DNA of 46,493 bases from a virus: positions 1 to 46,493 of IMG/VR virus record IMGVR_UViG_3300035698_005072. One strand, written 5' to 3'. A program made the translations under genes and the position numbers. Shown piece after piece: positions 20,906 to 42,096 of the stretch; the stretch's first letter is position 1, and every line of letters starts with the position of its first letter. The notes below the pieces were generated by a model that worked only from the letters and a program-made list of their open reading frames with translations, was not told where the DNA came from and made no database searches.

Positions 20906-21550
20906 ATGGCAGGAGTAAGTGAATATACTAAAAGTTACAATTCATTCTCAGGTGTTGATATTACAGCTACCTTTCAAGGGAAAGTTATAGGTTCTTTGCA
21001 AGGAGTGTCTTATTCAATAACTAGAGAAAAGGCTCCTATCTATACGATGGGGTCAGCTAATCCACGTAGTTTTTCTAGAGGTAAAAGAGGAATTGCTGGT
21101 GGGCTAGTATTTACTGTATTTGATAGGTCTGCTTTACTTGCAACTATACAAGACCTTGGATATGGAGAACAAAATGTAGATCAGTTCTACGCTTACAAAT
21201 CGGATAAACAGCATTTTGACAATACTGTAGGAGGTGCGGAAAGACAAATAGCTAACATATCTAGTGGTATGACTGGCCTTGTTGATTCTGCGGGAGTTGT
21301 AAGTCCAAGAGATTGGTCTACTCCTTACTACACGGATCAAATCCCACCTTTTGATATTGTTCTTTCAGCTGCTAATGAATTTGGAAGTATAGCATCTATG
21401 TCAATAGTAGGAGTAGATATCTTGAACGAAGGTTCTGGAATGTCTATAGATGACATCGTTACAGAAGAACAATTTACATTTGTATGTAGAGAGATTAAAC
21501 ATTGGAAATCACATAATGCAGAAAGTACGTTTAGTCCATACTTTGGTTAA
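20906..21550 (+). CDS. Tail tube protein, paralog 1 (probable main tube)
   Basis: This 214-aa protein follows the sheath (RBS AAAAGGAGG) and is closed by a strong terminator. Its fold signature is shared with the next gene: SFSGVDITATF, LQGVSYSITREKAPIYTMG, PRSFSRGKRGIAGGLVFTVFD, IPPFDIVLSAANEFGSI and FTFVCREIK. Position after the sheath and before a terminator points to the abundant tube subunit that forms the DNA channel. The adjacent paralogs probably serve as tube-end or specialised rings. Confidence 0.8.
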   Translation: MAGVSEYTKSYNSFSGVDITATFQGKVIGSLQGVSYSITREKAPIYTMGSANPRSFSRGKRGIAGGLVFTVFDRSALLATIQDLGYGEQNVDQFYAYKSDKQHFDNTVGGAERQIANISSGMTGLVDSAGVVSPRDWSTPYYTDQIPPFDIVLSAANEFGSIASMSIVGVDILNEGSGMSIDDIVTEEQFTFVCREIKHWKSHNAESTFSPYFG

Positions 21551-21610: not shown

Positions 21611-22336
21611 ATGTCATTATATACAGAACAGGATTTAAAAGATGGTCTTTCTGGTAAGTTGATATCTTCGTTTTCGGGTGCAGATATTCAGGTAATGCTA
21701 GGAATACCAGGAAAATTTAATGATGGTAACTACTATGATGGTGCCTATGTACAGCTAGGTAATTTACAAACGCTTTCTTATTCTATGCATAGGGAGGTTT
21801 TTCCTGTAAGATCTCTAGGCGCAGAGTACGGTCAAAATCCAGAGACTTTCACTAGAGGCCCTAGAACTTGTGCTGGTACTCTAATATGGACAGTACTTGA
21901 CATGGGTATTTTTGAAAGATTATACTCTGTGCATACACATTTAAAAAATGGTACAAGTGCTGATAAGCGCGGTGATCTAACTCCATACCTTAGAGAGCAT
22001 GATAAAGACCCTAATATTAATACAGAAGTTAAAATGGATCAGTTACTTCCTTTTGATTTGTACATTACATTTCAGAATGAGGTTGGTAGCATTATGGCTA
22101 TGGATATATTAGGTATTCGTATAACGGATGATAGCATGGTTCTAAGTTCTAATGATGTATTAACTGAGCAAACTATGAGTTTTGTATGTAGGGAAGTTAA
22201 ACTACCTTATAGACAGGTAAGTTATAAAAGTGCATACAGCCCTTCTGCATCTGTTCGTAGTACACTTAAAGGAAGACCAGATACTTATAGAAAAAAACAA
22301 AATGAGCTACTAAGGTATAGTAATAAGTATAAATAA
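21611..22336 (+). CDS. Tail tube-like protein, paralog 2 (241 aa)
   Basis: It aligns clearly with the preceding tube protein: SFSGADIQVML, LQTLSYSMHREVFPVRSLG, PETFTRGPRTCAGTLIWTVLD, LLPFDLYITFQNEVGSI and MSFVCREVK occur in the same order. It is about 27 residues longer, with an insertion near the start (GIPGKFNDGNYYDGAY) and a basic C-terminal tail. The RBS is AGGAG. It lies after the attenuating terminator, so lower expression is expected. It may form a tube-initiator or terminal ring on the baseplate or neck side. Confidence 0.7.
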   Translation: MSLYTEQDLKDGLSGKLISSFSGADIQVMLGIPGKFNDGNYYDGAYVQLGNLQTLSYSMHREVFPVRSLGAEYGQNPETFTRGPRTCAGTLIWTVLDMGIFERLYSVHTHLKNGTSADKRGDLTPYLREHDKDPNINTEVKMDQLLPFDLYITFQNEVGSIMAMDILGIRITDDSMVLSSNDVLTEQTMSFVCREVKLPYRQVSYKSAYSPSASVRSTLKGRPDTYRKKQNELLRYSNKYK

Positions 22337-24282: not shown

Positions 24283-27200
24283 ATGTATACTACGTTAAAC
24301 AATGGTTTCCCAGAGTGGGAAGATAATGTATCTATACGGGCTGGAAAGTATAGTACTAATATAAAACAAGCATCTAGACACTATAAAACTAATCCTAGAA
24401 CTTCCTTACATAAAGCAAAAAAATATACAAACCCCCCTGCATCTATTAAAAAATTAATAGGTATTGATACTAAAAGTATACTATCTAAGTATAGAGAGAA
24501 AATTAGTAATACTACCTTTCTTAGAAAGAATCGTGTACTTATAGGAAGTGCAGTGGCAACTGCTGCAACTGCATATGTAGGGTATAATATGTTTACTAAG
24601 GATACTGAGTCTACTTCAGAGTTACCTATACCTGTACCAATACAGCCCTTACCAAAGCAGCCACATAAAACTACTAAATTAGAGATGCTAGGCAAAGCAG
24701 CGTTATATGCGGGTACGTTAGCGCTTACTGCAAAGTTTAATAAGGTAACTAAACCCCTATATAAAAGACTTGCAAAAAGTACAAAACCTATAGTAGCATC
24801 AAGTTTATCTGGATATGGTAGGCATGCTGTTGCTATGTTTGCTACTACACAACTAGGAAATTCTGTATTTAGGGGAGATAGTCTTACTAAAGATATTGCA
24901 AAGAGTGCTGTATTTTCATTAGTTGCAGCAGCTCCTATGTCTATGTCTGCACGGGGAATAAGAACTGCTTGGAAATCAAAAGCTGTTCGTGCTATAAAAA
25001 TGGAAGCACATATAGCAACAATAGAGGCTGTAGGTAAACTACAAGGATCTAAAATAGCAAGAAAAGCTAGTAATTCTTCTTTAATGAATAATATGCGAAA
25101 GTTATTTAAAACACCTGAGGGTACTACATATAGAAGATACTCAGATATTTTACAAGAGTATACTAATACTGCAGCAAGAAGAGGGGAAGAGCTTACTAGT
25201 AAAAGTGTGTTAAGTTACACAAATAAAGAGTATAAGTTGTGGGAGACTTCCAAAATCGCACAATTAGATAAGCTACGTGGAGCAGGTAGTGCAGATAAGT
25301 TTTATAAAATAAATACAGAACTTAGTGCTGCTCGCTCTAAAATACAAGCGCAAAGAGAGGCACTAAGATTATCATTTGAAAATAAAGTACTTAAAGGTAG
25401 CTATACTAAATCTGGTATTAAATATACATCAGCATTAGATGATGTAGCAGCTAAGTATGGAGATGAGGGCTCTCGTCTTGTAGGTTTTGAAGATGATGTA
25501 TTACGTGGACTACGTGCAGATAAGAATCTATTTCAAGTAGGTAACACTTCTGTTAACCTTAACCTGCTAAATCCATTAAGGTTATTAAATGTAGGAGTAT
25601 CCGGTGCACAGGCACACGCTAGGGGAGTGCTGGGTACTGTTGTGGGGTTGTTCTCTCATCAAGGGTACAAAGCGCCACTAAGAGCAAGTTTAGGTGGCAA
25701 CAAGTACTTTGTACGTAATGCTGGTAAGCAAATAGGGGATGTGTACAGAGGAGTAGGGGGAAGTAGAGAACTACTAAAAAAAGGAGTATATCTAGGAGAG
25801 AATAGGATACGTAGAGTAGCTAAGAGTGCTAGTACTATTGCAAGAGAAAAAGGATGGGATACTGGATGGAAAGATACATGGTTAAATAGAGCTACTAAAA
25901 AGGTTGGGGGTAGGCTTGGTATAAAAAGATGGAGTAGGCTTAGATCTCATATGTTTGCTAGAAAAATGGGGTTTAGTGCAGCTGACTCCGCTTCTCCTTC
26001 TATTTTTAAGAGTATGTCAGCAGCGTACAAACAAGATACTTTATATGTACCTTTTATATCTGATATATTTGCATCATTATCTAAAGGTGCAGATGATGTA
26101 CTATTTAAAGGGAAAGCGCCTGGATTAAGTAAATATAAGAAAAGTATAGACGCGGCTAAAGAAGCAGCTAAAAAGGAACACTTAAGTTTTTTTAAAGAGG
26201 GTGTTGACCTACCTAAATATACTACTATGAATAGATCAGAATCTATTTCTTTTAGGTTTGCACAGATGCTCGAAAAGCCCCTTAGATTAGCAGAAGACTT
26301 AGGTATTGGGGGGATGCTGCCTTCAGTAGCAAAAACACCTGGTCAGTTTATAACTACATTTATGCTTAAAAGAGTGTTGCCTGCTGCTTTACTTTATGAA
26401 GGTGCTCGTTTTGCTGACTATGCCTCTAGAAAGGTAACTGGTGGATTTGGTCTACTAGGAGAAGGAGTAGGGCCCATTAGTTTAGTTGCGGATGCACTAG
26501 CAGCTACTAATGTAGCGGGAGGATATGTAAGGGATAAATTAGGAATTACCAAAGCTGGCGATTATTTAGAAGATTTAATGCCTGGCTCTGTAACTAGCTC
26601 TGCCTCTAAATTATTACGTATGTCTGCAGCTCCTGTATTAGTACATAAACTAGGGAGTATGGGAGGATCCGTTGGTCCAAAAGCTAGGATGCTACAACTT
26701 GCTGTAGGTCTGTCTATGTCTTATTTTGTAGGAGGAGATCTTACTTCTGCTAAATCAGGACCACAATTAAAGTCTGAATACTTTGGAGACGAAGAAGTAG
26801 CTATAAAGAAGGGTCGTTGGTGGGAATTCGGGAAATCTCCATTTGAAGGACAGGGTGTAGAGTACTATAGACCTAACTGGTATAGAATGCACCGGAGTCA
26901 CTATAAAGAAAAAGCCATGTATGGTAGTGAAAGTATGTACTGGCTTAAGGGCAGTTGGGCATCTCCTGGAAGATACCAGGATCCTTACTACTTCGAGAAA
27001 CTACATTATAAAGATAGACCATATCCCGTTACAGGAAAGTTATTTTCTGATGTTCCATTAATAGGCCCTGCATTAAGTCCATTAGGTAATATGATAAAGC
27101 CAAGAAAGTATATGCATACTGATGAGTTATACCCTACTTCTTATAGTAGTACTGCGAGTGGTTATGGTACTCCTGGAGGAGGACTCTCATACCGTGGAGT

Positions 27201-29076
27201 ACCTACTTCTTTCTTTAAGTCTAATATGACTAGCAGAGAACAGCGCTTAGGTAAATCAAAATCATACCCTATGCAAGCTCCTAAATATGTAAACCCTAAT
27301 CTAGTAGCAGCCTCTGAACAAGCATATCGTGCAGCTGAATGGATGGGTTTAAGAGGATTTGCAGCGCAGTCTATTGTTGAAAAAGCTACAGGAGTTTCTG
27401 AGTTTAATGTAGCGCAGGGAAGTATGGTGCTAGATGATCCAACATACGCAACTAGTTTTAGTAGGGATTACTGGGATAGAGATCTTGGTGGACTTGCTGG
27501 TGCTACAGAGTTTTTTAGAAGGCTGTTTCCTAGGCCTAGAAGAAGTGGAACTAGATACAATCCAATAAGAAATACAATGCCTGAATGGATGCCTGGAGAA
27601 GATTATTTTACTAACTTTAAGCTAGGGGATCCTTACACTAAAATAAAGATGGGGGAAGCTAGGCTTCCAGGTGCAGGATATGAGGCACTACACGGCAAGT
27701 CGCTAGAGGACTTTAATTCTTTAGATGCTTTTAAAGTACTTGCAGATGTAGCTCCATATTCTAATGAATATAAAATGTTAAAAGGACAACTACAAGAACA
27801 AGAACTATACTCTGAAGATGCTTCAAAATTCCAAAAGATAATAGAACAAGTGGAGAGTAGGTATGATGTTAAAGATTTTGCTCCTAGAAAGTTTACATAT
27901 GGGGATATAGGCAGCTACAATACTGTAGAAAAAGGATTAGGGCGTATTTGGGAAGAATTCTCTCATCTACATACTCCTTTTCATACTAAGTTATTACATA
28001 AAAGAAGTGCACTAGAGGATTATAGAAGATCAGAAGTATATGGTAGAAGTACTGCTTTCTGGGACTCTCCTTATAGAGACTTTATTAGGCCTATGTTCTC
28101 TGAAATGACTGCTCCTGCAGACTCATCAAAAGGTGCCATAATTAAGACGGCAGCTATGGCAAGTCTCGCTATGGGTATTGCTGCTGTATCTTTAAAAGGA
28201 AATACTTCTCTTAGAAAAGCAGCTATAGGAGCTGCAGGTATAGCAGTAGCAGGTACTAGTATATATCAAAATATTAGAAAAGGTTTAGGTTTTTCTATAG
28301 ACATTCCTGATGAAGTTAAAGAGAGAGCTAGTGTAGAAGAATACTTTGATAAGATGTCCTACTTAAAATATAGTAGATTAGAGGCTAGTAGTAAAGATTA
28401 TAATGAAAAGATGTTTTATAGAGCCCAGAAGAGTAATACACTTATGGGAATAGACCCATATGCTTATTGGGGTAAGATAATAGCAGTAGTACCTAAAAAA
28501 GAAAGAGCTTATTTTAAATCATTTATAGAAGCTGAAAGTGGAGAGAGATCCAAGATAATGGAAGTAGCTCCTGGTTACATGAAAAGGATATACCAAGCAC
28601 AGTGGGAAAAGGCAGATAAAGCAAGGGGAGAGCTAGCTACTCCTCAATATATATCATTACCATCAGCTGAGGAAGAGATGAATACCTTTCAAGAGAGTTC
28701 ATATATACCAGATGACGAGTGGGTAGGATGGAATGAAAATGTAGATCTAAACAAGGTTAAATTGAAAAGTATAATGGCGGCTGGAATGACACCGCAGGAC
28801 TTTAACTTCTGGGATAAAGATATAGCTGATTTAAAAAGAATGTCGTATATTCCTACAATATCTCTAAGTGGCATGGATTCTACTGATTATAATAAGGTAG
28901 CCCCTCGTGACGTTAGAAAACAGTTATTAAGTAAGAAAGGGCGTAGTAAGTCTTATACATTAGTAGACTTTAGTTCTAAGGATAACTTTGAGTTTAGTGT
29001 TACTGTACACAAAAATAGTATTAATACTAAGAATGATATACGTTATAGAAAAAAACAAATAGGAGTTGAGTACTAA
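24283..29076 (+). CDS. Giant tail protein in the tape-measure position (1597 aa)
   Basis: GGAGGTG precedes ATG 24283. The chain is basic, has an early hydrophobic segment (VLIGSAVATAATAYVGYNMF, about 84-103), several Ala/Gly-rich amphipathic stretches (about 135-230), a Tyr/Trp/Pro-rich middle (YYRPNWYRMH, GRYQDPYYFEKLHYKDRPYP) and a second hydrophobic zone (about 1284-1325). Order after chaperones and before the hub makes it the prime tape-measure candidate, but long heptad coiled coil is scarce. It may combine length control with a membrane-active ejected part. Its stop is two bases before the next gene. Confidence 0.6.
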   Translation: MYTTLNNGFPEWEDNVSIRAGKYSTNIKQASRHYKTNPRTSLHKAKKYTNPPASIKKLIGIDTKSILSKYREKISNTTFLRKNRVLIGSAVATAATAYVGYNMFTKDTESTSELPIPVPIQPLPKQPHKTTKLEMLGKAALYAGTLALTAKFNKVTKPLYKRLAKSTKPIVASSLSGYGRHAVAMFATTQLGNSVFRGDSLTKDIAKSAVFSLVAAAPMSMSARGIRTAWKSKAVRAIKMEAHIATIEAVGKLQGSKIARKASNSSLMNNMRKLFKTPEGTTYRRYSDILQEYTNTAARRGEELTSKSVLSYTNKEYKLWETSKIAQLDKLRGAGSADKFYKINTELSAARSKIQAQREALRLSFENKVLKGSYTKSGIKYTSALDDVAAKYGDEGSRLVGFEDDVLRGLRADKNLFQVGNTSVNLNLLNPLRLLNVGVSGAQAHARGVLGTVVGLFSHQGYKAPLRASLGGNKYFVRNAGKQIGDVYRGVGGSRELLKKGVYLGENRIRRVAKSASTIAREKGWDTGWKDTWLNRATKKVGGRLGIKRWSRLRSHMFARKMGFSAADSASPSIFKSMSAAYKQDTLYVPFISDIFASLSKGADDVLFKGKAPGLSKYKKSIDAAKEAAKKEHLSFFKEGVDLPKYTTMNRSESISFRFAQMLEKPLRLAEDLGIGGMLPSVAKTPGQFITTFMLKRVLPAALLYEGARFADYASRKVTGGFGLLGEGVGPISLVADALAATNVAGGYVRDKLGITKAGDYLEDLMPGSVTSSASKLLRMSAAPVLVHKLGSMGGSVGPKARMLQLAVGLSMSYFVGGDLTSAKSGPQLKSEYFGDEEVAIKKGRWWEFGKSPFEGQGVEYYRPNWYRMHRSHYKEKAMYGSESMYWLKGSWASPGRYQDPYYFEKLHYKDRPYPVTGKLFSDVPLIGPALSPLGNMIKPRKYMHTDELYPTSYSSTASGYGTPGGGLSYRGVPTSFFKSNMTSREQRLGKSKSYPMQAPKYVNPNLVAASEQAYRAAEWMGLRGFAAQSIVEKATGVSEFNVAQGSMVLDDPTYATSFSRDYWDRDLGGLAGATEFFRRLFPRPRRSGTRYNPIRNTMPEWMPGEDYFTNFKLGDPYTKIKMGEARLPGAGYEALHGKSLEDFNSLDAFKVLADVAPYSNEYKMLKGQLQEQELYSEDASKFQKIIEQVESRYDVKDFAPRKFTYGDIGSYNTVEKGLGRIWEEFSHLHTPFHTKLLHKRSALEDYRRSEVYGRSTAFWDSPYRDFIRPMFSEMTAPADSSKGAIIKTAAMASLAMGIAAVSLKGNTSLRKAAIGAAGIAVAGTSIYQNIRKGLGFSIDIPDEVKERASVEEYFDKMSYLKYSRLEASSKDYNEKMFYRAQKSNTLMGIDPYAYWGKIIAVVPKKERAYFKSFIEAESGERSKIMEVAPGYMKRIYQAQWEKADKARGELATPQYISLPSAEEEMNTFQESSYIPDDEWVGWNENVDLNKVKLKSIMAAGMTPQDFNFWDKDIADLKRMSYIPTISLSGMDSTDYNKVAPRDVRKQLLSKKGRSKSYTLVDFSSKDNFEFSVTVHKNSINTKNDIRYRKKQIGVEY

Positions 29077-29078
29077 TA

Positions 29079-32000
29079 ATGAAAAAATGGGCAGGTAAAA
29101 CAGTATTAAATCAAGATTGGATTGATCCTTCTGAAATATTCAGTGAGGGTACTATGCCTACTAGTGAGATTCATGAGTTAGTAAACCGTGGTCTGACTCA
29201 AGATCCTGTTGGTTTTACGTTTAGTGCGCTAGAGGAGGCTACTGATTTAGCAAAAAGAAATACATTCCTAAAGAGTAATCTTAGTTTAGAGCAGTATAGA
29301 GATAAGTATATAGTTGCATATAAAATGGCAGGAAATGCAGAGATAAGTAGTAAAAATGCATCAAGGTTATTTAAAAAAGGATCTGATGCTATGCTATCTT
29401 ATGGAGAGGATGTATCTAAGCGTGTAGGCTCTAATACAAAGTATATTAATTCTTTGCTAGATACAAGATTTTTAACAAGCGATGGGTCTGCTTTCTATAA
29501 AGATACTATAAATAATCTATCTAATATAAAAAAGTATACTGAAAATGCTTCCTTAGAATTTATGGATAACACATTAAAGTCTTCAAGCCCAAATTGGTTT
29601 CTATCGGGACAGGGTGTAGTCAAAGGTGCGCATGCTAGTGTAAATGTAAAGAAAGGGTATTCTACAGCAGATGCAACTAAGGCAGCCTATCTTAAAATAA
29701 GGAACTTTGGTACTAAGGCGGAGCACTCTATCTATAAAATTCAAGATGTGTTAATTTATGCACATGCAGGTGGCTGGAATAACGTAAGGCTAGCTGAAGA
29801 GTTATCTAAAGAAGGATTTGGTGCACTTAGTAGCTTAGAGAGAAGTGCACTTAACAGGAATAATGCGTTAGCACAAGCAGGAAGAGGATACTTCTGGGAT
29901 TTTAATGAAGGAAAGTATGTAGATTTATATCCTCTAATAGATAGCAAGGGGAAGCATATAAGATCTTCTGCACAAAGAACAGAAGAGATTAAAGCTTTAA
30001 AAAGAAATATGTCCTTTACAAAATCTCCTGGGTTTGAAAAAGATATAAGAAAGTCTATGGATTCTCTTAGAGGTCTAATGGGCACGTTAAAAGAAGGAAG
30101 TATAATAGATGCACGTAAGGGTGGGACTTCAGTATCTGACGTAGCTGATGCAGCCACTGCTGCATTCAAGGAAAGAGGAAAGCTTCTAGAGGGAGTTACT
30201 CTAGGCGATGATATACTTTTAAGAAATAATGTTCTCCCAAATAGTGGAGAAGCTCGCGCAATGAGTTCCAGATTATCTGCTATAAAAAGTAAAATATGGA
30301 GTTCATTACCTAAGCTTCAAAGGGGGGAGTATGGAAAATATGGTATATTTTCTAGTAAAGGAGAGGCAGGTTTAATACGTACAGATTTACTACAAGCTGC
30401 GTATGATAGATTAGCTTTGCTGGATAAAGATACTACTAATTTAAGAATATCACCTAAGGATATAGGGAAACCTGGAAATAAAACAGCTAAACAACTAGTA
30501 GATGACATAGCTGCTAGGATGGTATCAATGGAGTTAGATAGTGTAGATAATATAGTAACACAAATACCTCAAACAGGAGCCATTAAAGAATTAGTAAAAC
30601 AGAAATTTAAAGAAGGTAAGTCAGTAGAGGCATATGCTTTAATGGGGTATCAAGTGGATCCCAGAAAGTCTACTGCTATATTTAATACAGTATTTAGAGA
30701 TACTTCTAAAGTAAAAAAAGCAGCTGAAATAGGTTATGAAGAACTACGTAGAATTACAGATTATGAAAGCGCGGCACCTTTCCTTATGCCACAAAAAGGT
30801 TTTCTTAACAAAGCACGTGAAATGAAAGATAGATTAGCTAGTAATATAGATAAAGGTGTTACTTCTGGTGTGTATGGTACAGGTAGTGACGTATCTTCTA
30901 TTAGTACATCTTCTATTATACAGGATGAGGGAGAGGAGTTAGCAGCATTAACAGAAAGCATAGTACATCCGACAGATACTAGAAAAGGTACAGAGTTTAT
31001 TCCGGAGACTACTATTAGTGAAATGCTACCTAAATCTACTGGAAACTTTACTTCAGATGATATAGTAGAAAACTTTAAAAGAACCCAAGAAAGTGTTACT
31101 CTTGAAAAAGAGTATGGTAATATACTATACAGTAATAAATCTTACAGTAATAAAGCGGATGACCTTATGCAGGTAGCTCGAGTAGAGGCAGCTAAGTTAG
31201 AAGAAATGAAGCTTACTGCATCAGATAGTATCCATATTAAAGAAATAGAACATATGCAAAAAGTGGAGAATACTAGGGCTTTAGATAAGTTAAATAATAT
31301 GGAGATGCAATCGGCTAGAGAACTTTCTGAAGAAGTAGTTTCTGGAAAAACTATAAGTGAGTCCATGGATGGAGTGCAGAATAGACTACAGGCATATAAT
31401 GAGGAAGCTAGAGGTATAGTACAGGAGCATGCGGGGTCTAGCCATGTTTCTGGGATAAGCAGAAAAGGTAGAAATCTTATAAAAGAGGCACAGGATAGGT
31501 TGGTGTTTGGAGATACCGCTAATGATGTAACACTAGGGGTACGCGATGATATAAGAACAAAGTTATTTGGTGAATGGAAAGACCGTAAATATATATTTGA
31601 GACAGGTGATCTTAAACTAGGAAGAGAAGCATCTGAGAAATTGAAAAGAGCCGTTGGTGCAACTAAACCTACTATTAAAGGTATAACGGATGCTGCACTG
31701 GGTGGCTTAGGTATAGATCCTGAGGTACTAGCCAGAGGTTTAGGTAGTAGATTGGATCATAAAGAGTATCTTAGTGCTATAAATAAGGGTATTACAGATA
31801 TGGGGGAAACAGCAAAGAGATTCAGGATAAAGCATGCTGGACTTACCCCTGAAAGAAAAAATCTAATAGATGCAATAATAAGTACGAAGGCACAGGCTAA
31901 AGTAAATAAAGGTTCTCTTAGCCTATCTGGATTAGACTACCTAGCTGAAGGCGAATATAAAACATTAGGAGAAACTTACTTTGGTAGTTATGGTAGTCAT

Positions 32001-32732
32001 TTTGATGTAAGCATAGATCCATATGAAGATACATATAGAATGTCTATGAAGAGAATAAAAAACTTTGATGATAACATGCTTGCTAAGCTGGACAACATAG
32101 GTATATCAAAAGAAACAGCGTTTAAGGCATTTCCTGAAATAGGTAAGCGCGTAACTGTAGGTACTATACAAAAAACTAAAGATGGTGTAGGTTATATAAA
32201 TGCACTTAATGAGATAAATGAGCAGACATATAAAGAGGTATCAGGTGGAGGTATTGCAGGTATAATAAGGGAAAAAGCAGAGAGAATAAAAGGTAAGGCT
32301 AAAAGTTTAGGGGATGATGCTATGCGAGGACTTAGTTTAGCTAGAGAAGGTGCTGGTGCCTGGTGGAAAAGCGCTTCTTTTGCACAACGTGGAGGAACCT
32401 CCGCGGCTATTGTAGGAGGTGTTATAGCTACAGCTATGGTAGCTGCTAGCGTATTCAAAGATAGGCCGGGAACAGATCCTGCTAATATAGTAATAGATCA
32501 AAAAGCTCCTGAACATAATGTAGCAAGAATAATACCTGAGGAAGGTTATCGTAAGGATACTTCAGTACGACAAGTAGATAGATATGAAGACGGATATGAT
32601 GATCTATATAAAGACTTAGGTAGTATGCAGGCTCCTAATACAGTAATAAAAAGAATAGACAGCTATAAAAATATGAGCCCACAATCAAGAGAGATGTTGA
32701 TAACAAAATCAATGAATAGACCGGAGTACTAA
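29079..32732 (+). CDS. Second giant tail protein (1217 aa)
   Basis: The gene starts two bases after the 1597-aa gene and ends one base before the next. The product is largely helical and polar, with long charged stretches (for example KADDLMQVARVEAAKLEEMKL and RALDKLNNMEMQSARELSEEV, about 685-760) that suit a tape measure. A Gly/Ala hydrophobic segment (SAAIVGGVIATAMVAASVF) lies at about 1106-1126, followed by a polar tail ending SMNRPEY. No enzyme motif was recognised. It could be the true tape measure, with the upstream protein as companion, or the two may act together as a split tape measure. Confidence 0.55.
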   Translation: MKKWAGKTVLNQDWIDPSEIFSEGTMPTSEIHELVNRGLTQDPVGFTFSALEEATDLAKRNTFLKSNLSLEQYRDKYIVAYKMAGNAEISSKNASRLFKKGSDAMLSYGEDVSKRVGSNTKYINSLLDTRFLTSDGSAFYKDTINNLSNIKKYTENASLEFMDNTLKSSSPNWFLSGQGVVKGAHASVNVKKGYSTADATKAAYLKIRNFGTKAEHSIYKIQDVLIYAHAGGWNNVRLAEELSKEGFGALSSLERSALNRNNALAQAGRGYFWDFNEGKYVDLYPLIDSKGKHIRSSAQRTEEIKALKRNMSFTKSPGFEKDIRKSMDSLRGLMGTLKEGSIIDARKGGTSVSDVADAATAAFKERGKLLEGVTLGDDILLRNNVLPNSGEARAMSSRLSAIKSKIWSSLPKLQRGEYGKYGIFSSKGEAGLIRTDLLQAAYDRLALLDKDTTNLRISPKDIGKPGNKTAKQLVDDIAARMVSMELDSVDNIVTQIPQTGAIKELVKQKFKEGKSVEAYALMGYQVDPRKSTAIFNTVFRDTSKVKKAAEIGYEELRRITDYESAAPFLMPQKGFLNKAREMKDRLASNIDKGVTSGVYGTGSDVSSISTSSIIQDEGEELAALTESIVHPTDTRKGTEFIPETTISEMLPKSTGNFTSDDIVENFKRTQESVTLEKEYGNILYSNKSYSNKADDLMQVARVEAAKLEEMKLTASDSIHIKEIEHMQKVENTRALDKLNNMEMQSARELSEEVVSGKTISESMDGVQNRLQAYNEEARGIVQEHAGSSHVSGISRKGRNLIKEAQDRLVFGDTANDVTLGVRDDIRTKLFGEWKDRKYIFETGDLKLGREASEKLKRAVGATKPTIKGITDAALGGLGIDPEVLARGLGSRLDHKEYLSAINKGITDMGETAKRFRIKHAGLTPERKNLIDAIISTKAQAKVNKGSLSLSGLDYLAEGEYKTLGETYFGSYGSHFDVSIDPYEDTYRMSMKRIKNFDDNMLAKLDNIGISKETAFKAFPEIGKRVTVGTIQKTKDGVGYINALNEINEQTYKEVSGGGIAGIIREKAERIKGKAKSLGDDAMRGLSLAREGAGAWWKSASFAQRGGTSAAIVGGVIATAMVAASVFKDRPGTDPANIVIDQKAPEHNVARIIPEEGYRKDTSVRQVDRYEDGYDDLYKDLGSMQAPNTVIKRIDSYKNMSPQSREMLITKSMNRPEY

Positions 32733-32733
32733 T

Positions 32734-35160
32734 ATGATAATTACAGATGATGATCTAGACTTAAATGATAAGATAGAAAAAGGAGCTACTAAAATAGGAG
32801 CTACATGGTTAATGGTTCCTCCTACGAGTATATCTATAGAGGATGAGAAGGGGTTAGAGCAGTACGCTATGCTAAGATCTACTTCTAATACTAGTCTAAA
32901 AACAGGAAGAGGTCGTATTAGTATAAGCATGTCTCTTATATTTGTAGATAAGGAAGATATTGATATGCATTTAATTCCTATATTAGCGCAGTTTAAAAGA
33001 TCTCCATTCCTACCTATAACTAATAAATTTCTAAGAGATGCACTTTATCCTGATTTAAAAAGTAATCCTATAATTAGTGAATATAATAAAGGTAAAGAGA
33101 ATGATGAAATCTCAGGCATTAATGCAAAGATGAATAATCTATCTACTAAGATAGGCATATACGAAGAGGATATAAAAGAATTGATGAAGGAAGATGCAGC
33201 AAATACATCTCCAACTACAGAGCAGCAAGCTATGTATGGTGCCTACTCCTCTAGAAATGTAGAGTTACGAGGTACTTTTAGTGAGGGATCTATTGAACTA
33301 GGTGGAGGAAGTAGCGGTGGCGGTGGAGCAAGTGGAAGCTGGGACTCCTTTAAAAATAACGCTAATAAGATCAAATTGTTGCAGGATAAAGTCGTAGATA
33401 TGGTTCAGGAAAAAGGTATATTATTATCGAAAAAGAATATGAAAGTAGAGGAGTTAGAGAATAGTAAATTAAAGATCAAAAAAGGGTATTCTCCTGGAAT
33501 ACATGTAACTCTAGAAAGCATCAATATTAGTAATGTACCTAATCTCCCAAATTCTGTTGTTGTTTCTTTTTCTTTATTATACTTTAATCATTCTATTTAT
33601 ATACCTAGTGTAGAGTATATTATAGGGAGAGACATTAATGATCCTATTACTATAAATAAGAAACAAGGAATACAATATAGCAGTAATATAAGTGATAGTA
33701 TTCTATTTAAGCAATTATATACTTCTCTAATAAGTGATAAATCTGAATATCCATTCCTAACAAATACAAGTACACGTATAGATAATGCTAGTTTGGATAC
33801 TATAGTCTTTGGATATAGCACTACTTCTAGAAAGACAGGAGAGAGTCCACAGGAACTAGTACCTACTAATTCTTTAGGTATTAATGTACAGGGAGACATA
33901 AAGAATGATCCAATTTTAATTAATATACCAGGCGTTCACATACAAGGAGTATCTGTTGGATATATAAATTATATACCTGAGATTCCTATATTAGGACATA
34001 GCCGAGCTGCACATCAGTTTATAGGGTGTTCTTCCTATACTGCTAGTATACACCTTCAAGTACATGACAATGATGAGACTGGAAGCTTGGGTATTCTTAG
34101 AAGTTTTGTAGAACGTATGGAAGAATTAGCCTTATATAAGGATAGATCACAATATAGACATTGGTTTAAAATTACATCTCCAATTATGAATTTAATAGGG
34201 ATGCATTTTGGAATAATTAAAAATATGGAAATAAGTACAGTGGAGGGGAGTCCTGGTTTATACGATGTTGTTTTATCTATAAATGGTTTTGATCCTAGTA
34301 ATATAGCTTGGGATAAGAACAACCTAAACCCTTGGATTAATGATGACTTACGTTATGAAGTACTATCTGGTATACTTAAGGGGAAGTTTAATGCTCCTAT
34401 ACTTGAAAAATTAAAAGACTTTGCATTTGGAGAGGATGTCTCTCTTGAAGGAAATATAAAACCACTACTTGATGATATTGGTTACAAAAAGATAAGTGAT
34501 GATAGCTACTTACCAAATCCAGACAGTGTTATTAAGTATACAGGATTTAGTCCTGATAATCCTATACATACTACAGAAGCTACTGTTGTGGATGGAGATA
34601 CTATATCCGTGGATGGTGCTGCAATTAGATTAAAAGGTATAGATACTCTTGAATCTGGAATAACTGTGGGAGGTAAGCCTAATACTAAAGTATATGCACA
34701 GGCTGCTAAGTATGGTAAAACTCCTGATGAAGTAATTGCACAAGGAAAAGCAGCCTCTGATTATACTAAAAGTTTAGTAGAAGGTAGAGATATTACTACT
34801 GAAGCATCCCCTTCAGATAAGAAGACTCATTATAAAGGTAAGTATGCAAGGAATTTAGGATATGTATATACTCCTGTAACGGATACGGAGCGTAATGATC
34901 CAGAAATAACTTCTGACTGCTACACTACCTTAGAAGGTAAAGAAGATCCACAATTAGATGTACAAGCATGTCTAGTATCAAAAGGACTTGCTATATCTCC
35001 TGTGTATAGTCATGATAAAAAAGAACTTTATGATAAGTTACAAAAGGAAGCTAAGAAAGATAAGCGTGGTATATGGGCTGAAAAAGTAGATGGAGAAAAT
35101 GTAATGGTAGGAAAAGCTAAAGAAATTTATCGTAACCTCAAAAGTATTATAGTAGCATAG
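32734..35160 (+). CDS. Baseplate protein with C-terminal staphylococcal nuclease domain (808 aa)
   Basis: Residues 1-110 are beta-rich (MVPPTSISIEDEKGLEQY, RGRISISMSLIFVDKEDID) and recall tail-hub/tube-adaptor proteins. A Gly/Ser linker (about 187-206) and a coiled coil follow, then another beta-rich block to about 560. Residues about 612-790 are an SNase/TNase domain: VVDGDTI (D622), IRLKGIDTLE (R632, D637, E640), YARNLGYVY (R706) and ending KKDKRGIWAE. All residues equivalent to SNase D21, R35, D40, E43 and R87 are present, so calcium-dependent phosphodiesterase activity is plausible. The protein also shares GAYSSRN-x-ELRG (169-180) with the next gene. Confidence 0.8.
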   Translation: MIITDDDLDLNDKIEKGATKIGATWLMVPPTSISIEDEKGLEQYAMLRSTSNTSLKTGRGRISISMSLIFVDKEDIDMHLIPILAQFKRSPFLPITNKFLRDALYPDLKSNPIISEYNKGKENDEISGINAKMNNLSTKIGIYEEDIKELMKEDAANTSPTTEQQAMYGAYSSRNVELRGTFSEGSIELGGGSSGGGGASGSWDSFKNNANKIKLLQDKVVDMVQEKGILLSKKNMKVEELENSKLKIKKGYSPGIHVTLESINISNVPNLPNSVVVSFSLLYFNHSIYIPSVEYIIGRDINDPITINKKQGIQYSSNISDSILFKQLYTSLISDKSEYPFLTNTSTRIDNASLDTIVFGYSTTSRKTGESPQELVPTNSLGINVQGDIKNDPILINIPGVHIQGVSVGYINYIPEIPILGHSRAAHQFIGCSSYTASIHLQVHDNDETGSLGILRSFVERMEELALYKDRSQYRHWFKITSPIMNLIGMHFGIIKNMEISTVEGSPGLYDVVLSINGFDPSNIAWDKNNLNPWINDDLRYEVLSGILKGKFNAPILEKLKDFAFGEDVSLEGNIKPLLDDIGYKKISDDSYLPNPDSVIKYTGFSPDNPIHTTEATVVDGDTISVDGAAIRLKGIDTLESGITVGGKPNTKVYAQAAKYGKTPDEVIAQGKAASDYTKSLVEGRDITTEASPSDKKTHYKGKYARNLGYVYTPVTDTERNDPEITSDCYTTLEGKEDPQLDVQACLVSKGLAISPVYSHDKKELYDKLQKEAKKDKRGIWAEKVDGENVMVGKAKEIYRNLKSIIVA

Positions 35161-35175
35161 GTAGGAGAATATAAA

Positions 35176-38100
35176 ATGGAACTAGATAAATTTGGTTTAC
35201 CAAGAATAACAGCTGAATCTAGGCTACACATCCCTGTATCAAAAACAGAATGGGAAGCTGAAAAGCAGAGAAAAGGATACATACGTAAAAATGGTGGATG
35301 GATGCCTGGTGGTGAGTATGGAGGGTTAATAGTAAAGTACGAGGACGGTAATCGTGAAGAAATCATTGAGAATCCAGAATGGCGTGCACAGTTTAATGAA
35401 AGAATGCGTGTCGAGGATGAGCACTATAGAATATATGAAGAAAAGCAAGAGAAGAAGAAAGCAAAGGTAAAAGAAGCGGAAGTTGAATCCTCTCTGTCTA
35501 AAGAAAAGGCATCAGCAGAGTCTAAAATAGAGGAGGAAGCATCTAGACAAGAATTAGAAAGAATGGTTGCAGAACTACATAAAGAGGAACTAGCCACTTT
35601 AAAACAAAGAACTTATAGTGAGCTATCTTATGGGGAAAAACAGGATCTAAAGGAACTTCAAATCCAAGTTGCATTAGATGAGAGAGCTGTAGGTCTAAAA
35701 AAGAAGGATACTAAACTAGAGACTAAACCTAAACCTGGATCTACTATTACACAAGAACATATAGACGCAGCACTTAAAGCAAATAAGGAAGTAGAAGATG
35801 CATATGCTCGAAAAGCATTAGGGGAACAAAACAAAGACCCTAAATACTATAACTACGAGTATGGTCCTGGAGGTAAGGCTACTCCTGTAGTTAGTAAAAG
35901 TAAAACTAATAAGGAAATAGATAATGGTGCTATAGTCCCCGTAAAAGTACAAAGTAAAGCAAGTATGCAAGGAGCTTATTCCTCTAGAAATAGGGAGCTT
36001 AGAGGAGGAGAGGCTGTTCTAGATAAAAATATAGACGTTGAGTTACCTGGATACTCCAGCCCTACGCTAGAAATGTCAAAAACTCAAGCAGGGATAATAA
36101 AGAAGATAAAAGGAGACATACTAAGGTCTCCTAATAATGAAAGAATGCTTCGTAATTATATAGCTAGTCTATCAACTGAGTCAAAAAGAATGATAGATAC
36201 TGCTATACTTAAAAATAAAAATAAGTTAGATTTATCTACAAGAAAAAAGATTAATAAAAAAACACTCAATCTATCTGTTAGAAACTTATATCCTGATCTA
36301 GGGCTTAAACGATACATAGATTATAATCTAAGACCACCTACTTACGCTGAGCTTGGAGAGGGTGCTCCAGTATTTGTTAGTAGAAAAGTACAAAGTAACA
36401 GAACAGAGCAAGACTATGTAGAGCCTGATTTTATATATAGAAGACTATGCATTTTAAAGGACGACAATAATCTCATAGGAAATAAAAAGTCATATGATAA
36501 TGCTATAGATGATGTTATAGACGATGTTATGTCTGTCACGAGTAAAGGCCCTTTAGATTTATTAGCTAAGAATTATGCACAGCTAGAGGAAACTACAACT
36601 AGTAATAAAACACCTATAGAAAAGGCGGACTCTGGGGAAGTGAAAAATCTAGAGTATGGTAATAATGACATTAAAAAATATAATAAACACCATAAAAAAG
36701 ATATAGCTTCCTTAGCTAAAAAGTTACATGATAATCTTAATGATAGTACATACTCTTTGGCAAGAGCATTTCCTACATATCAGATATTATTTAGACATCC
36801 TAAGTACAGCTCCTGGTTTGGTTTATCTTATAGTGATTATTTTGAGACGGATACTGTATCTAGTTTAGAGATAATAAAGAATAGACAAAGAGCCTCTGAT
36901 ATTGCTGTTATAAAGATAGTAGATCTATTTGAAGGATTAACAGAAAGGGTTGTACATGTTTTAGATGATGAGGGAAGAATAGCATCTAGAAAGTTAAGTA
37001 AAAAAGATGATAACAAATTTAAAGACTTTGTGTTAAGGCCTGGAATTGAAGTTCAAATAAAGATAGGCTACGCAAATAAGGCAGCTGCTCTTCCTACTGT
37101 ATTTACTGGTATCATCACTGAAATGTCATACGATGAGAATATTGTTCTCGTAGCACAAGGTTTTGGGTATGAGTTACTTGCTCCAAAGAATGCAGATAAA
37201 TCTAGTACTATGAATTCTAAGTGGGCAGAGGATAAAAATATACTAGCAGATCTTTTGCATGAGTCTAAGGAAGTAGCTCATTTTGGTAAGGAGACAATGC
37301 TGCGAAGATATTTAAATAGTAAAAATAGTGGTATAGAGGCTTACGCTCCTGATTATGTAACTAAGAATGGTAAGAATATAAAAGATAATATGATTAAGGG
37401 AGCTTTCAAGGACTGGTCTGGGCAAGGCCAAACAGACATAGATATAGTTAGAAGAGCTAATGAAAGTACTCTAGAAACAATACAAAGACGTGGAAATATA
37501 ATATTAGATAAGCTTAATATATTTACTAAAACTAGAAAAGCACTAAACATATATGGTAACTTTTCAAAAAAGGTTAATCCTGGAGAAGAAGAATGTAACG
37601 TTATAAACAAAGAAATTAGAGATAAGAAAATTAAAAGAAATAAACTAAATGCTCTAGTAGATCATATAGAAGATAATAACTTATTCTTTGATTACACGGG
37701 TAAATCGCATAAGTTTAAAGGGAAAGACTATAAATTTTATATGAAGGATACAAATATCTGGAATATAGCAAAGGAGTTAGAATTAAGGCATCCCGGATTT
37801 ATAGCCACTGTAGTACCCTTTGATGAAAGAGCTACATTATTCTTTGGAAGACCTGAGCAGCCTTACTGGTGGACTACGGATACTGATAACTTAACTGATT
37901 TTTATACATATCAAGATGGTGTAAATAGGAATGATGTAGACGCTACTAAGAGTGATCCTAGATTAAAGCCTCTTACTAACTACTTTTTTGCACACAGTAG
38001 TCTTAATCTTGTATCAAATAACATAACACCTTCAGCAGAAGGTACTTATAACATGGTGTCCGTATCCTCATATAAGCAAGGATCCTTTAGAAAGATAGCA

Positions 38101-39237
38101 AGTAAGGCTCTTTTTGGGGTGTTTGGAAAAAGTACTGATACTTTAAAAAGAGGACGTACTCGCTACAGTAAGTTAAATGATAACATACCAGACTATCTAC
38201 TTAGACATCAACACTTCGAAGAAATAAATGCAGCAAACAGTACCTTGACTAAGAAGTATGCATTAGGTCATTTAGTTAAAGGAGTGCGTGATATGTATAA
38301 GGGTGAGCTAGTGATGCTCGGAGATGGGGCTATTAAGCCATATGATACTGTATTCATATATGATGAGTATCGTGATATAGTTGGGCCTGTTGAGGTTGAG
38401 CAAGTAGTACACAGTTTTACATTAGAGCATGGATTTATTTCTACAATAACTCCAGATCTATGTCTGGATATAGACAATCCCTTTAAGTTTACAGTGCTAC
38501 ATGCTTTCTCTAATAAAGCAACAATAGCTGCTAATAAGATAGAGAAAGAAAGAGAGGCATCAAATGCAGCACACTATAAAAGGGTAACTGGAGATGATTA
38601 TAGTATTAAATTTAAGAAGAAAGTGTACCTTGCAAAAGGAGAAAATTTGAAAGAAACACTTAGTACCGTCAGAAAAGGATCTGTGTTATTATCTATGGTA
38701 GGGGGATATACACGTACAGTCTCAAAAGCAGTAATGAAAACAGGGTTTATAGGTGCAGGAATTCCAATGGCTATAGCATCCGGGATAGTTAATAAAATAA
38801 AAGATAAAGTGTATAATAGAAACCCTATTAATATACATCCATTATTATATAAAGGTAAGCCATATGTTGCGGGAGTAGATGGTTATGAACAAAATAGCAT
38901 ATTTGGTCACTATGGTACTAAAGTTAAAAGATTTACTGACAATATAGACTCTTTTTATGATGCATGGAGTGATGGTCTCGATGAAGAAGCAGCTAATTAT
39001 AATAGTGCGGAACTGGAGACTGCCGAAAAATATACTAGATTACAGTTAAAGACAGTTAAAACAGCAGCGCTTGCAGCTTTGGGTATGGTATCTACTGCAT
39101 CAACGCCTCAACTAGTAGGTAAAGAACTTACAAAGGACTATAGTAATATTACTAGAAAAGGGGTAGTAAGGACATTGCAAGGTAAAACTAAATCATTTCT
39201 CACTAATGTTAGTAATTGGTTTGATAAGAAGGATTAA
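35176..39237 (+). CDS. Baseplate hub protein, gpD/gp27-like (1353 aa)
   Basis: The RBS is TAGGAGAA. Residues 1-255 are highly charged coiled coil (KQEKKKAKVKEAEVESSL, EEASRQELERMV). GAYSSRN-x-ELRG lies at 266-277. Residues about 535-1100 contain a phage late-control/hub domain: VLRPGIEVQIKIGYAN, LPTVFTGIITEMSYDENIVLVAQGFGYELL and, later, GELVMLGDGAIKPYDTVFI. A small hydrophobic patch (GAGIPMAIASGIVN) is near 1194. Hubs form the trimeric or hexameric end of the tail tube that carries the spike. The length is far beyond typical hubs (about 350-400 aa) because of the charged N-terminus and insertions. Confidence 0.75.
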   Translation: MELDKFGLPRITAESRLHIPVSKTEWEAEKQRKGYIRKNGGWMPGGEYGGLIVKYEDGNREEIIENPEWRAQFNERMRVEDEHYRIYEEKQEKKKAKVKEAEVESSLSKEKASAESKIEEEASRQELERMVAELHKEELATLKQRTYSELSYGEKQDLKELQIQVALDERAVGLKKKDTKLETKPKPGSTITQEHIDAALKANKEVEDAYARKALGEQNKDPKYYNYEYGPGGKATPVVSKSKTNKEIDNGAIVPVKVQSKASMQGAYSSRNRELRGGEAVLDKNIDVELPGYSSPTLEMSKTQAGIIKKIKGDILRSPNNERMLRNYIASLSTESKRMIDTAILKNKNKLDLSTRKKINKKTLNLSVRNLYPDLGLKRYIDYNLRPPTYAELGEGAPVFVSRKVQSNRTEQDYVEPDFIYRRLCILKDDNNLIGNKKSYDNAIDDVIDDVMSVTSKGPLDLLAKNYAQLEETTTSNKTPIEKADSGEVKNLEYGNNDIKKYNKHHKKDIASLAKKLHDNLNDSTYSLARAFPTYQILFRHPKYSSWFGLSYSDYFETDTVSSLEIIKNRQRASDIAVIKIVDLFEGLTERVVHVLDDEGRIASRKLSKKDDNKFKDFVLRPGIEVQIKIGYANKAAALPTVFTGIITEMSYDENIVLVAQGFGYELLAPKNADKSSTMNSKWAEDKNILADLLHESKEVAHFGKETMLRRYLNSKNSGIEAYAPDYVTKNGKNIKDNMIKGAFKDWSGQGQTDIDIVRRANESTLETIQRRGNIILDKLNIFTKTRKALNIYGNFSKKVNPGEEECNVINKEIRDKKIKRNKLNALVDHIEDNNLFFDYTGKSHKFKGKDYKFYMKDTNIWNIAKELELRHPGFIATVVPFDERATLFFGRPEQPYWWTTDTDNLTDFYTYQDGVNRNDVDATKSDPRLKPLTNYFFAHSSLNLVSNNITPSAEGTYNMVSVSSYKQGSFRKIASKALFGVFGKSTDTLKRGRTRYSKLNDNIPDYLLRHQHFEEINAANSTLTKKYALGHLVKGVRDMYKGELVMLGDGAIKPYDTVFIYDEYRDIVGPVEVEQVVHSFTLEHGFISTITPDLCLDIDNPFKFTVLHAFSNKATIAANKIEKEREASNAAHYKRVTGDDYSIKFKKKVYLAKGENLKETLSTVRKGSVLLSMVGGYTRTVSKAVMKTGFIGAGIPMAIASGIVNKIKDKVYNRNPINIHPLLYKGKPYVAGVDGYEQNSIFGHYGTKVKRFTDNIDSFYDAWSDGLDEEAANYNSAELETAEKYTRLQLKTVKTAALAALGMVSTASTPQLVGKELTKDYSNITRKGVVRTLQGKTKSFLTNVSNWFDKKD

Positions 39238-39660: not shown

Positions 39661-40488
39661 ATGGAAGAAACTCATACATCAGAAAATATAGGACAAAGTA
39701 AGTATCTTGAAGCTAATGCAGTTAGTCCCGGAGATAAGATTATAAAGTGGGGAGATGAGGACGATGAGCATGCTTCATCACTATCACTTAGACGTAAAGA
39801 AGCTTTTTTAACTCCAGGTAACTTTATTGGATATTATACTAATATAGAAGATGGTAACACTATATGTGGTAGACTAAACCTAGCCACTCAACCTAGTGAG
39901 ATCTTTTTAGATGGGCAGTACAGAGGTAATAGCAGATTGCCATTTTTATTTGGTATTGATCCTTTTCAAATATCTTTTAAGTTTAAAAGTACAGCTGCTA
40001 CTGAGATGTCAAGTATGTTGCTAGATTACAGTAATGATTATGATAAATTAGCATATGCTATAAAAGAAGGTGTGAGTTGTATTGTTGATGATGATACATG
40101 GAGTTACTTATACTTAATAGAGCCTGGAATTGCTGGATATTATTCAGAGGGGCATACTACTAGACCTTATCCACATTGTGATCCAGTTACTGGAATACCA
40201 GTATTTACTAGTAAGGGTATTGCAGCTAAGGATACTGAAGAATTAATTACAGCTAAGCCTACATTTCCAAGTTCAGGTAAGTATTATCCAGAGTCAAATG
40301 TAGCTAAGAAAAAGGGAGAAGATCCTTTACACGAGGCAAGTCCTGGAGACACTGTACAACATATAGTATATACACTACGTAAAGTATACCATAAGGTACG
40401 CTTATTTAAACCTTGTGTAGGAGTAGATCCGGGTGTGGCAGCAGCTACATCACTTGAAGCAAAGCTTGCAGGTGGAGGTATAGTTTAA
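39661..40488 (+). CDS. Hypothetical baseplate protein (275 aa)
   Basis: TAGGAGCG precedes ATG 39661. The protein is polar with mixed strands and loops (NFIGYYTNIEDGNTICGRLN, PFLFGIDPFQISFKFKS), Cys and His scattered (YPHCDP), and a basic region HIVYTLRKVYHKVRLFKPC before a Gly-rich end. No family is recognised. It sits between the spike-base candidate and the gp25-like gene and ends in a TAATG overlap with the latter, so it most likely belongs to the baseplate. Confidence 0.5.
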   Translation: MEETHTSENIGQSKYLEANAVSPGDKIIKWGDEDDEHASSLSLRRKEAFLTPGNFIGYYTNIEDGNTICGRLNLATQPSEIFLDGQYRGNSRLPFLFGIDPFQISFKFKSTAATEMSSMLLDYSNDYDKLAYAIKEGVSCIVDDDTWSYLYLIEPGIAGYYSEGHTTRPYPHCDPVTGIPVFTSKGIAAKDTEELITAKPTFPSSGKYYPESNVAKKKGEDPLHEASPGDTVQHIVYTLRKVYHKVRLFKPCVGVDPGVAAATSLEAKLAGGGIV

Positions 40489-40953: not shown

Positions 40954-42096
40954 ATGGCACTTTTTACAAAAGATCTAGATACTATTACAAGTGAAGTAAC
41001 AAATAAACTAATTAATAATACAGTTATAACTAGCATAGGGGAAGGTACTACTTCTAAGCTATTTGTAGATGCATTTGGTGAAGAGATAAGGGACCTGTAT
41101 AGTTCAGTTGATATAAATCAAAAAATGTCATTCTTATCCTCTGCGGATGGTCTATACTTAGATTTTATAGGGCAACTATTAAATTTATCAAGAGATTCTG
41201 AAACTAAGGGAATAGTAACTGCTTCTAATAGTAATATAAAGTTTTATGTAACTTCGGGTGTTTTATATGATGTACTAAATGGTGCTAACTATATCTCTGA
41301 AGGTACTGTAATTAGTAATACAGCGGGCACTATATTCTACTCTGTAGAGGATACAGTGTTAGTACCCCCTAGTGCAACTGAAGTATATGTTGCAGCCACA
41401 TCTCTTAATCAAGGAGCTGAAGGTAATCTAGGAGCTAATGAGCTTACTGTACATGATATTCCAGATGTTACAGATATATATGTTACAAATTCAGAGGCAA
41501 TACTAAGTGGTACAAGTGCCGAAGATGATGATAACTTTAGAGCACGTATTGCAAATGCTGTAGTAGCTTCGCAGAAAGCTAATAAAACCTCAATAGAACA
41601 AGCAGTTATTGGGTTAACTGAAGTAGCTGATGTTTACCTTAGACCATATGTTAGGGGTATTGGTACTTATGATGTATATGTGTTATCTCGTTCTGGTTTT
41701 CCTTCTGCATCTCTACTCGCGGAAGTGCAGACTGAGATAGAAGCAGTACAGAGTTTTGGAGCTAGTGGATTAGCTAGAAGTCCTAGAAAGTTAGATGTGG
41801 AATTATCTATTAGACTACTATTTAAAGAAGGTACTGACTTATCCTTAAGAGAGAATATAAAAAGTGATGTAACTTCTATTACCATAGACTATATGGCGTC
41901 TATCCCTATGGGTGGGGCTTTTATATATAATGAAATGATACAGAGGATACATGATGTTAGTAGTAACATTATTGATAGTCATATATCCATATATAGATTT
42001 AAAGGTAAGGATTCTTTAAAAGTAAATGTGTTAGCAGATTTTGATGAGATGTTTTTTCCTGATGAAAATATAAACGAAGCTATAAAGGTAATTTAA
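40954..42096 (+). CDS. Baseplate J-like protein
   Basis: AAAGGAG precedes ATG 40954. The 380-aa protein follows the BaseplateJ (gp47-like) plan: an N-terminal helical part ending in SADGLYLDFIGQLLNLSRD, strands with GTVISNTAGTIFYSVEDTVLV, a Gly/Asn turn region (AATSLNQGAEGNLGANEL), the hallmark GTSAEDDDNFRARIANAVV, then VYLRPYVRGIGTYDVYVLS and a final alpha/beta domain. J proteins form the wedge that links the hub to peripheral baseplate and fibres. The next gene overlaps its stop by one base (TAATG). Confidence 0.88.
   Translation: MALFTKDLDTITSEVTNKLINNTVITSIGEGTTSKLFVDAFGEEIRDLYSSVDINQKMSFLSSADGLYLDFIGQLLNLSRDSETKGIVTASNSNIKFYVTSGVLYDVLNGANYISEGTVISNTAGTIFYSVEDTVLVPPSATEVYVAATSLNQGAEGNLGANELTVHDIPDVTDIYVTNSEAILSGTSAEDDDNFRARIANAVVASQKANKTSIEQAVIGLTEVADVYLRPYVRGIGTYDVYVLSRSGFPSASLLAEVQTEIEAVQSFGASGLARSPRKLDVELSIRLLFKEGTDLSLRENIKSDVTSITIDYMASIPMGGAFIYNEMIQRIHDVSSNIIDSHISIYRFKGKDSLKVNVLADFDEMFFPDENINEAIKVI

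Follow-up and report, generated by a model that had tools for sequence, protein, structure and literature searches.

This locus raises the question of what a nuclease domain is doing in a structural protein of a phage tail. The window (the whole stretch of DNA that was analysed, 46,493 nucleotides of IMG/VR virus record IMGVR_UViG_3300035698_005072) contains an 808-aa ORF that the initial annotation described as a baseplate protein ending in a staphylococcal nuclease (SNase)-like domain. The features of this ORF that concern the nuclease are as follows, with all positions given in window coordinates.

32734-35160, + strand: putative N-terminal half of a hub protein, 808 aa, ATG start, SNase domain at its C-terminus
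34570-35103, + strand: SNase (PF00565) domain, aa 613-790, located by Pfam, fold match and the profile of a 33-row alignment
34591-34602, + strand: DGDT motif, aa 620-623 (SNase D19, G20, D21 and T22), invariant in 33/33 aligned SNases
34627-34629, + strand: R632 (SNase R35), invariant in 33/33 aligned SNases
34642-34653, + strand: D637, T638, L639 and E640 (SNase D40, T41, P42 and E43)
34849-34851, + strand: R706 (SNase R87), invariant in 33/33 aligned SNases

The SNase-like domain was borne out. PF00565 is the only Pfam family found in the 808-aa protein (residues 631-782, E-value: 5.6e-11), and its score of 43.3 bits lies above the curated gathering cut-off of 21; an SNase profile made for this study covers aa 617-790. 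The domain scores below the NCBIfam equivalog cut-offs, and a phmmer search of the PDB with the whole 808-aa protein returned nothing. The window domain was then aligned with those of six hub relatives and with 26 stand-alone phage SNases. In this 33-row alignment, 9 of the 88 well-filled columns are invariant (D620, G621, D622, T623, G628, R632, E640, G671 and R706), and these include the SNase motif and active-site positions. The E640 column is invariant (33/33), the D637 column holds D or N and the T638 column T, A or C. All of the catalytic and calcium-binding residues (D21, R35, D40, T41, E43 and R87) have their counterparts in the window domain (D622, R632, D637, T638, E640 and R706), and Y85 is present as Y704; the five residues singled out by the initial annotation (D622, R632, D637, E640 and R706) are exactly where it had placed them and in register with SNase. 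The departures from textbook SNase are the replacement of P42 by L639 and two insertions, at approximately aa 641-670 and 713-745.

Structure prediction gave the same result. An AlphaFold2 model of the SNase domain alone, rather than of the whole 808 aa, was built from the 33-row alignment (pLDDT 80.6, pTM 0.74), and its 48 best PDB fold matches (E below 0.001) were all staphylococcal nuclease (best E-value: 3.7e-6, probability 1.00), the top match being a calcium-and-inhibitor complex. An earlier model, for which 17 divergent hub SNases had been aligned, was of low quality (pLDDT 66), with Tudor-SN as its best PDB matches (E-value: 0.008). The profile of the 33-row alignment retrieved SNases from the PDB at 3e-20. 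Both the predicted model and its PDB matches place the domain in the SNase fold (an OB-barrel with helices). Judged by sequence and model together, the match is genuine rather than a product of chance, and the predicted catalytic potential of the domain is well supported.

The second part of the description, that of a baseplate protein, depends on the remainder of the ORF and on its neighbours.

24283-29076, + strand: giant tail gene, 1597 aa, conserved in the nearest hub relative (L008) and in other relatives
29079-32732, + strand: giant tail gene, 1217 aa, immediately upstream of the 808-aa ORF, with no family match in Pfam or PHROGs
32746-33045, + strand: HubN1 scaffold domain, aa 5-104 (HMM from relatives with the window in the seed, E-value: 5.3e-39)
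33922-34296, + strand: HubN2 scaffold domain, aa 397-521 (HMM made here; phrog_20474 match at 258-522, E-value: 3.2e-21)
35158-35160, + strand: single in-frame TAG parting the two hub halves
35163-35167, + strand: AGGAG ribosome-binding site for the C-terminal half
35176-39237, + strand: C-terminal half of the hub, 1353 aa (phrog_20474, E-value: 5.4e-41; phrog_8809, E-value: 2.7e-23)
36619-38478, + strand: gp27-like hub region, aa 482-1101 of the C-terminal half, located by profile and homology to relatives
40954-42096, + strand: baseplate wedge protein (Baseplate_J; Pfam E-value: 5.4e-29)

Both the 808-aa ORF and the ORF that follows it match phrog_20474, a family of proteins of approximately 1950 residues, and in Bacillus phage KLEB27-3, Moorella phage MTATph1 and Acinetobacter phage ME3 a single protein of 2200-2330 aa spans the two window genes. 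These full-length counterparts are annotated as baseplate protein, endolysin or hub/peptidase. The HubN1 region matches the KLEB27-3 hub by BLASTP (E-value: 2e-11), and the C-terminal half matches the MTATph1, KLEB27-3 and ME3 hubs by tblastn. HubN1, HubN2 and the gp27-like region occur in this order, homologous to the hubs of named phages, and the genes flanking them are those expected, with the giant tail genes (24283-29076 and 29079-32732) directly before the 808-aa gene, as the initial annotation had noted, and Baseplate_J after. On the strength of the homology to KLEB27-3 gp035, MTATph1 CDS0032 and ME3 gp037, the assignment of the 808-aa gene as the N-terminal half of a baseplate-hub protein, in a lineage of myoviruses resembling 0305phi8-36, is well supported by sequence. 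The protein is thus a baseplate protein as described, but it corresponds to half of the hub and not to the whole. The terms "hub" and "gp27-like" derive from HMM work on 0305phi8-36 gp147 (Hardies et al. 2007, PMC2147016); in a direct comparison with the T4 gp27/P2 gpD family, the gp27-like profile gave no match in the PDB at E 1.

Three other observations were made in the structural genes of the window. A 275-aa gene of the baseplate region (39661-40488) has no relative in Pfam, PHROGs, NCBIfam or the loci that were fetched. Two adjacent genes beside the tail sheath gene (20906-21550 and 21611-22336) both match phrog_9206 and are probably paralogues. The portal protein (10694-12784) matches head-morphogenesis families at its C-terminus (aa 576-692) and appears to be a portal-morphogenesis fusion.

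The hub of the window is not a single long ORF because of the TAG at 35158-35160, although this is not a strict requirement, as split hubs also exist in three other contigs (L016, L050 and L065). The two halves share one frame and the split falls directly after the SNase domain. As one TAG is the sole in-frame stop between the halves, read-through would rejoin them into a 2167-aa hub like those of the relatives, with the SNase domain internal, and almost all relatives with an M23 peptidase in the corresponding slot have the hub in one ORF. Read-through bears on the form of the protein and is compatible with any role of the nuclease, but we consider it improbable: the next gene has a good AGGAG and its own ATG after the stop, the other split hubs provide a precedent for separate halves, and general recoding of TAG was rejected as this codon ends six window genes (five besides the 808-aa ORF).

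To place the fusion among its relatives, approximately 120 hub loci were collected from two IMG/VR profile searches with the gp27-like region, from plasmids, from named phages and from one genome scan, and the scaffold was mapped in them with in-house profiles of HubN1, HubN2 and the gp27-like region. One scaffold order was found throughout, and the catalytic domain varies around it: the scaffold is constant, while its catalytic cargo is exchanged between M23 peptidase, glucosaminidase, lysozyme and SNase. M23 is central in 12 representatives (lying between HubN2 and the gp27-like region in L007, L097, L101, L112, L115, L116 and L118), and glucosaminidase or lysozyme is C-terminal in four. The same fusion with SNase recurs in the hubs of other tails at three positions. 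It is N-terminal in KLEB27-3, MTATph1, the phage-plasmids pN497 and pAD3, and L009, L107 and L100, weakly so in L126, and diverged N-terminal copies were recognised by motif in L093, L096, L109 and L117. It is central in the window and in ME3 (which has both SNase and M23). A large clade of giant hubs has it at the C-terminus, in some cases as a separate ORF (L120, L081/L083 and L032/L041). Pfam gives no score to the C-terminal copies that were tried; an SNase profile built from the window, ME3 and N-terminal copies, with the C-terminal copies left out, still matches L052, L073, L081 and others at 1e-7 to 1e-8. In L073, L062, L060 and L065 the C-terminal domain retains its active-site motifs and is lengthened by insertions, of approximately 70 aa or larger, that separate E43 from the helix after it. 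Two further phages (those of L106 and L108) have hubs with no recognised SNase and carry the domain in another protein of >1,300 aa, far from the hub gene (L129, Pfam E-value: 1e-13, and L130, 3e-12, respectively). One hub of the lineage (L128), from a contig putatively assigned by binning to Acholeplasmataceae, a group of hosts lacking a cell wall, has no recognised catalytic domain.

No close relative of the window emerged from single-sequence searches of IMG/VR, whether the query was the 808-aa protein or the portal. The nearest hub relative (L008, approximately 21-30% identity) has its scaffold in one ORF and no recognised enzyme, SNase included. The 480 residues that follow the split do not align with L008, and it is by domain order that the window SNase is assigned to the slot between HubN2 and the gp27-like region. 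The window terminase is closest to those of MTATph1 (37%), KLEB27-3 and ME3, and the hubs of all three carry SNase. In the SNase tree, a single clade of all hub copies (p-AU 0.42) and a grouping of the window with ME3 (p-AU 0.51) are both accepted, and the tree fits several independent captures as well as a single capture with later moves. No support was obtained in pAD3, pN497, L052 or L100 for a recent origin of the hub domain from a stand-alone SNase in the same genome, as their hub copies group with other hub copies (with weak support).

If the catalytic activity of these domains is under selection, their active-site residues should be kept or lost together. In 17 hub SNases from the three positions, a set picked by similarity to SNase and hence biased, the only invariant columns are D19, D21, T22, R35, G38, E43 and R87. 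A less biased test was made in the C-terminal class, in which the domain was located by the conserved sequence just before it. T22, E43 and R87 are all kept in 44 of these hubs and all lost in 17 (counts of sequences, many of them closely related); the sole exception is one hub with E43 in which no R87 motif was recognised. Such a coupled pattern is what would be expected if catalysis is selected. The 17 all-lost hubs form one clade (99 support between two representatives), and their coupled loss was probably a single event. In these loci (L019, L051 and 15 others) substitutions at T22, D40, E43 and R87 occur jointly (DGDE, I, S/K/N and K, respectively), and by its residues the domain is a pseudo-nuclease in a virion protein. 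Two representative contigs of this clade also carry a stand-alone SNase gene, as do several contigs with live hubs. By the same residues, the window SNase belongs to the live type.

The persistence of the fold in these 17 hubs in the absence of T22, E43 and R87 points to a non-catalytic role in some hubs, and it could be argued that the domain is in general a structural module of the hub spike, with its catalytic residues incidental, particularly as SNase is an OB fold like the domains of spike collars. We regard this as rather doubtful for the window. Fold alone hardly explains the full catalytic motifs of the window and of 44 C-terminal-class hubs, and the domain differs in position among hubs, with three positions in all, and is lacking in L008, the nearest relative.

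The reading that we favour, if tentatively, is that the window domain may be a live, calcium-gated nuclease that is carried as exchangeable hub cargo and acts outside the cytoplasm during adsorption and penetration. The slot between HubN2 and the gp27-like region holds an M23 cell-wall peptidase in many relatives and appears to hold SNase here instead; the window has no recognised wall hydrolase that could stand in for the absent M23, which counts against this reading. The nuclease would form part of the tail tip in the virion and would cut extracellular or envelope-bound DNA or RNA at the host surface, while the phage genome would be shielded within the tail tube. Enzymes of the SNase family are secreted and need millimolar calcium, a level present outside cells and far above that of the cytoplasm. 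An extracellular site of action is suggested by this knowledge of the family together with the sharing of the slot with cell-wall enzymes, which work in the envelope. A nuclease so near the DNA channel would put the phage itself in danger, and this too speaks against the reading. A calcium switch, with the enzyme working outside the cell and idle in the calcium-poor cytoplasm, is a reasonable idea. The separate wall hydrolases encoded downstream of the SNase hubs of pAD3 and pN497 appear to lend further support to this role.

The intact catalytic set would also suit a nuclease delivered with the tail tip into the cell or periplasm, there to cut host, plasmid or competing-phage DNA early, in rival exclusion or host take-over. 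Hub domains sit where tip proteins can enter the envelope, and several members of the lineage are phage-plasmids that would gain from excluding rivals. The calcium need of the family, however, far exceeds cytoplasmic levels and argues for action outside the cytoplasm and against the cutting of host DNA in the cell; in addition, the hub is a structural part and not a known injected protein. The initial annotation had proposed an attack on host or competitor DNA, for which no evidence was found, and we consider delivery unlikely. Its other proposal was that the nuclease trims the incoming genome end; in a wider form of this reading, the end of the phage's own DNA would be trimmed or released at the tip of the tail, either ahead of ejection or in its course. 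The domain has an intact active site and, from hub homology, would lie near the DNA exit, but an SNase without sequence specificity would threaten the whole genome, and the many relatives with the same scaffold that lack SNase (having M23, glucosaminidase, lysozyme or no recognised domain) argue against a conserved ejection step. No evidence for such processing was found and it is very improbable. Delivery, a structural role and genome-end processing are thus each less likely than action at the host surface, in that order.

More speculatively, hub SNase might belong to a small set of interchangeable tip enzymes, functionally on a par with the wall hydrolases, in a large, old lineage of contractile tails, clearing or breaking nucleic acid in the surface layer of the host, with repeated gains or shifts of position and a loss of activity in some clades. 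Provided that the enzyme is active, the targets of tail tips include nucleic acid besides peptidoglycan and glycans; this would bear on how phages enter cells that have a coat of extracellular DNA and on how phages exclude one another. The live and dead copies of one protein provide a matched natural set, and together with the recurrence at three positions with catalytic residues kept and the sharing of a wall-hydrolase slot, they turn a curiosity of 2007 into a testable question.

The fusion of SNase to a hub has been known since that year, when Hardies et al. (PMC2147016) reported an SNase-related domain, of no obvious purpose, in the hub of prophage BtI1. No later treatment of hub SNase was found in the literature searched (in which few subscription journals were covered), and the term SNase is not used in a 2021 jumbo-phage survey. 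Databases do hold hubs annotated as "nuclease", and a BFVD entry named "Baseplate hub protein" is among the fold matches of the window domain. Three findings are new here: SNase lies centrally in a hub that is split, it recurs at three positions, and live copies contrast with dead ones.

Like the window, the BtI1 hub (RBTH_07687 of Bacillus thuringiensis israelensis) has SNase fused to a homologue of 0305phi8-36 gp147, but its SNase is N-terminal and its hub is described as one gene, whereas in the window SNase is central and the hub is split after it. Paralogous wall hydrolases are encoded just downstream of the BtI1 hub (Hardies et al. 2007, PMC2147016). In ME3 gp037 (YP_009595869), SNase (aa 1126-1241, Pfam E-value: 4.7e-14) occupies the same slot, after the N-terminal part of the hub and before its gp27-like region; unlike the window, ME3 has an M23 peptidase after SNase and a single ORF of 2329 aa. 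MTATph1 CDS0032 and KLEB27-3 gp035 have a hub SNase as in the window, but at the N-terminus, and in KLEB27-3 D40 is replaced by Q and the Pfam score falls under the cut-off. The hubs of the phage-plasmids pAD3 (B. velezensis) and pN497-ZHONG (Cytobacillus) are annotated as "nuclease" and have an N-terminal SNase; in contrast to the window, both encode separate wall hydrolases just downstream of the hub and have another SNase gene, a stand-alone one, at a different site. No wall hydrolase is listed just downstream in those relatives whose hub contains glucosaminidase or lysozyme. Finally, the window domain has its fold and catalytic residues in common with staphylococcal nuclease (thermonuclease, PF00565), from which it differs in the L in place of P42, the two insertions and the fusion to a hub protein.
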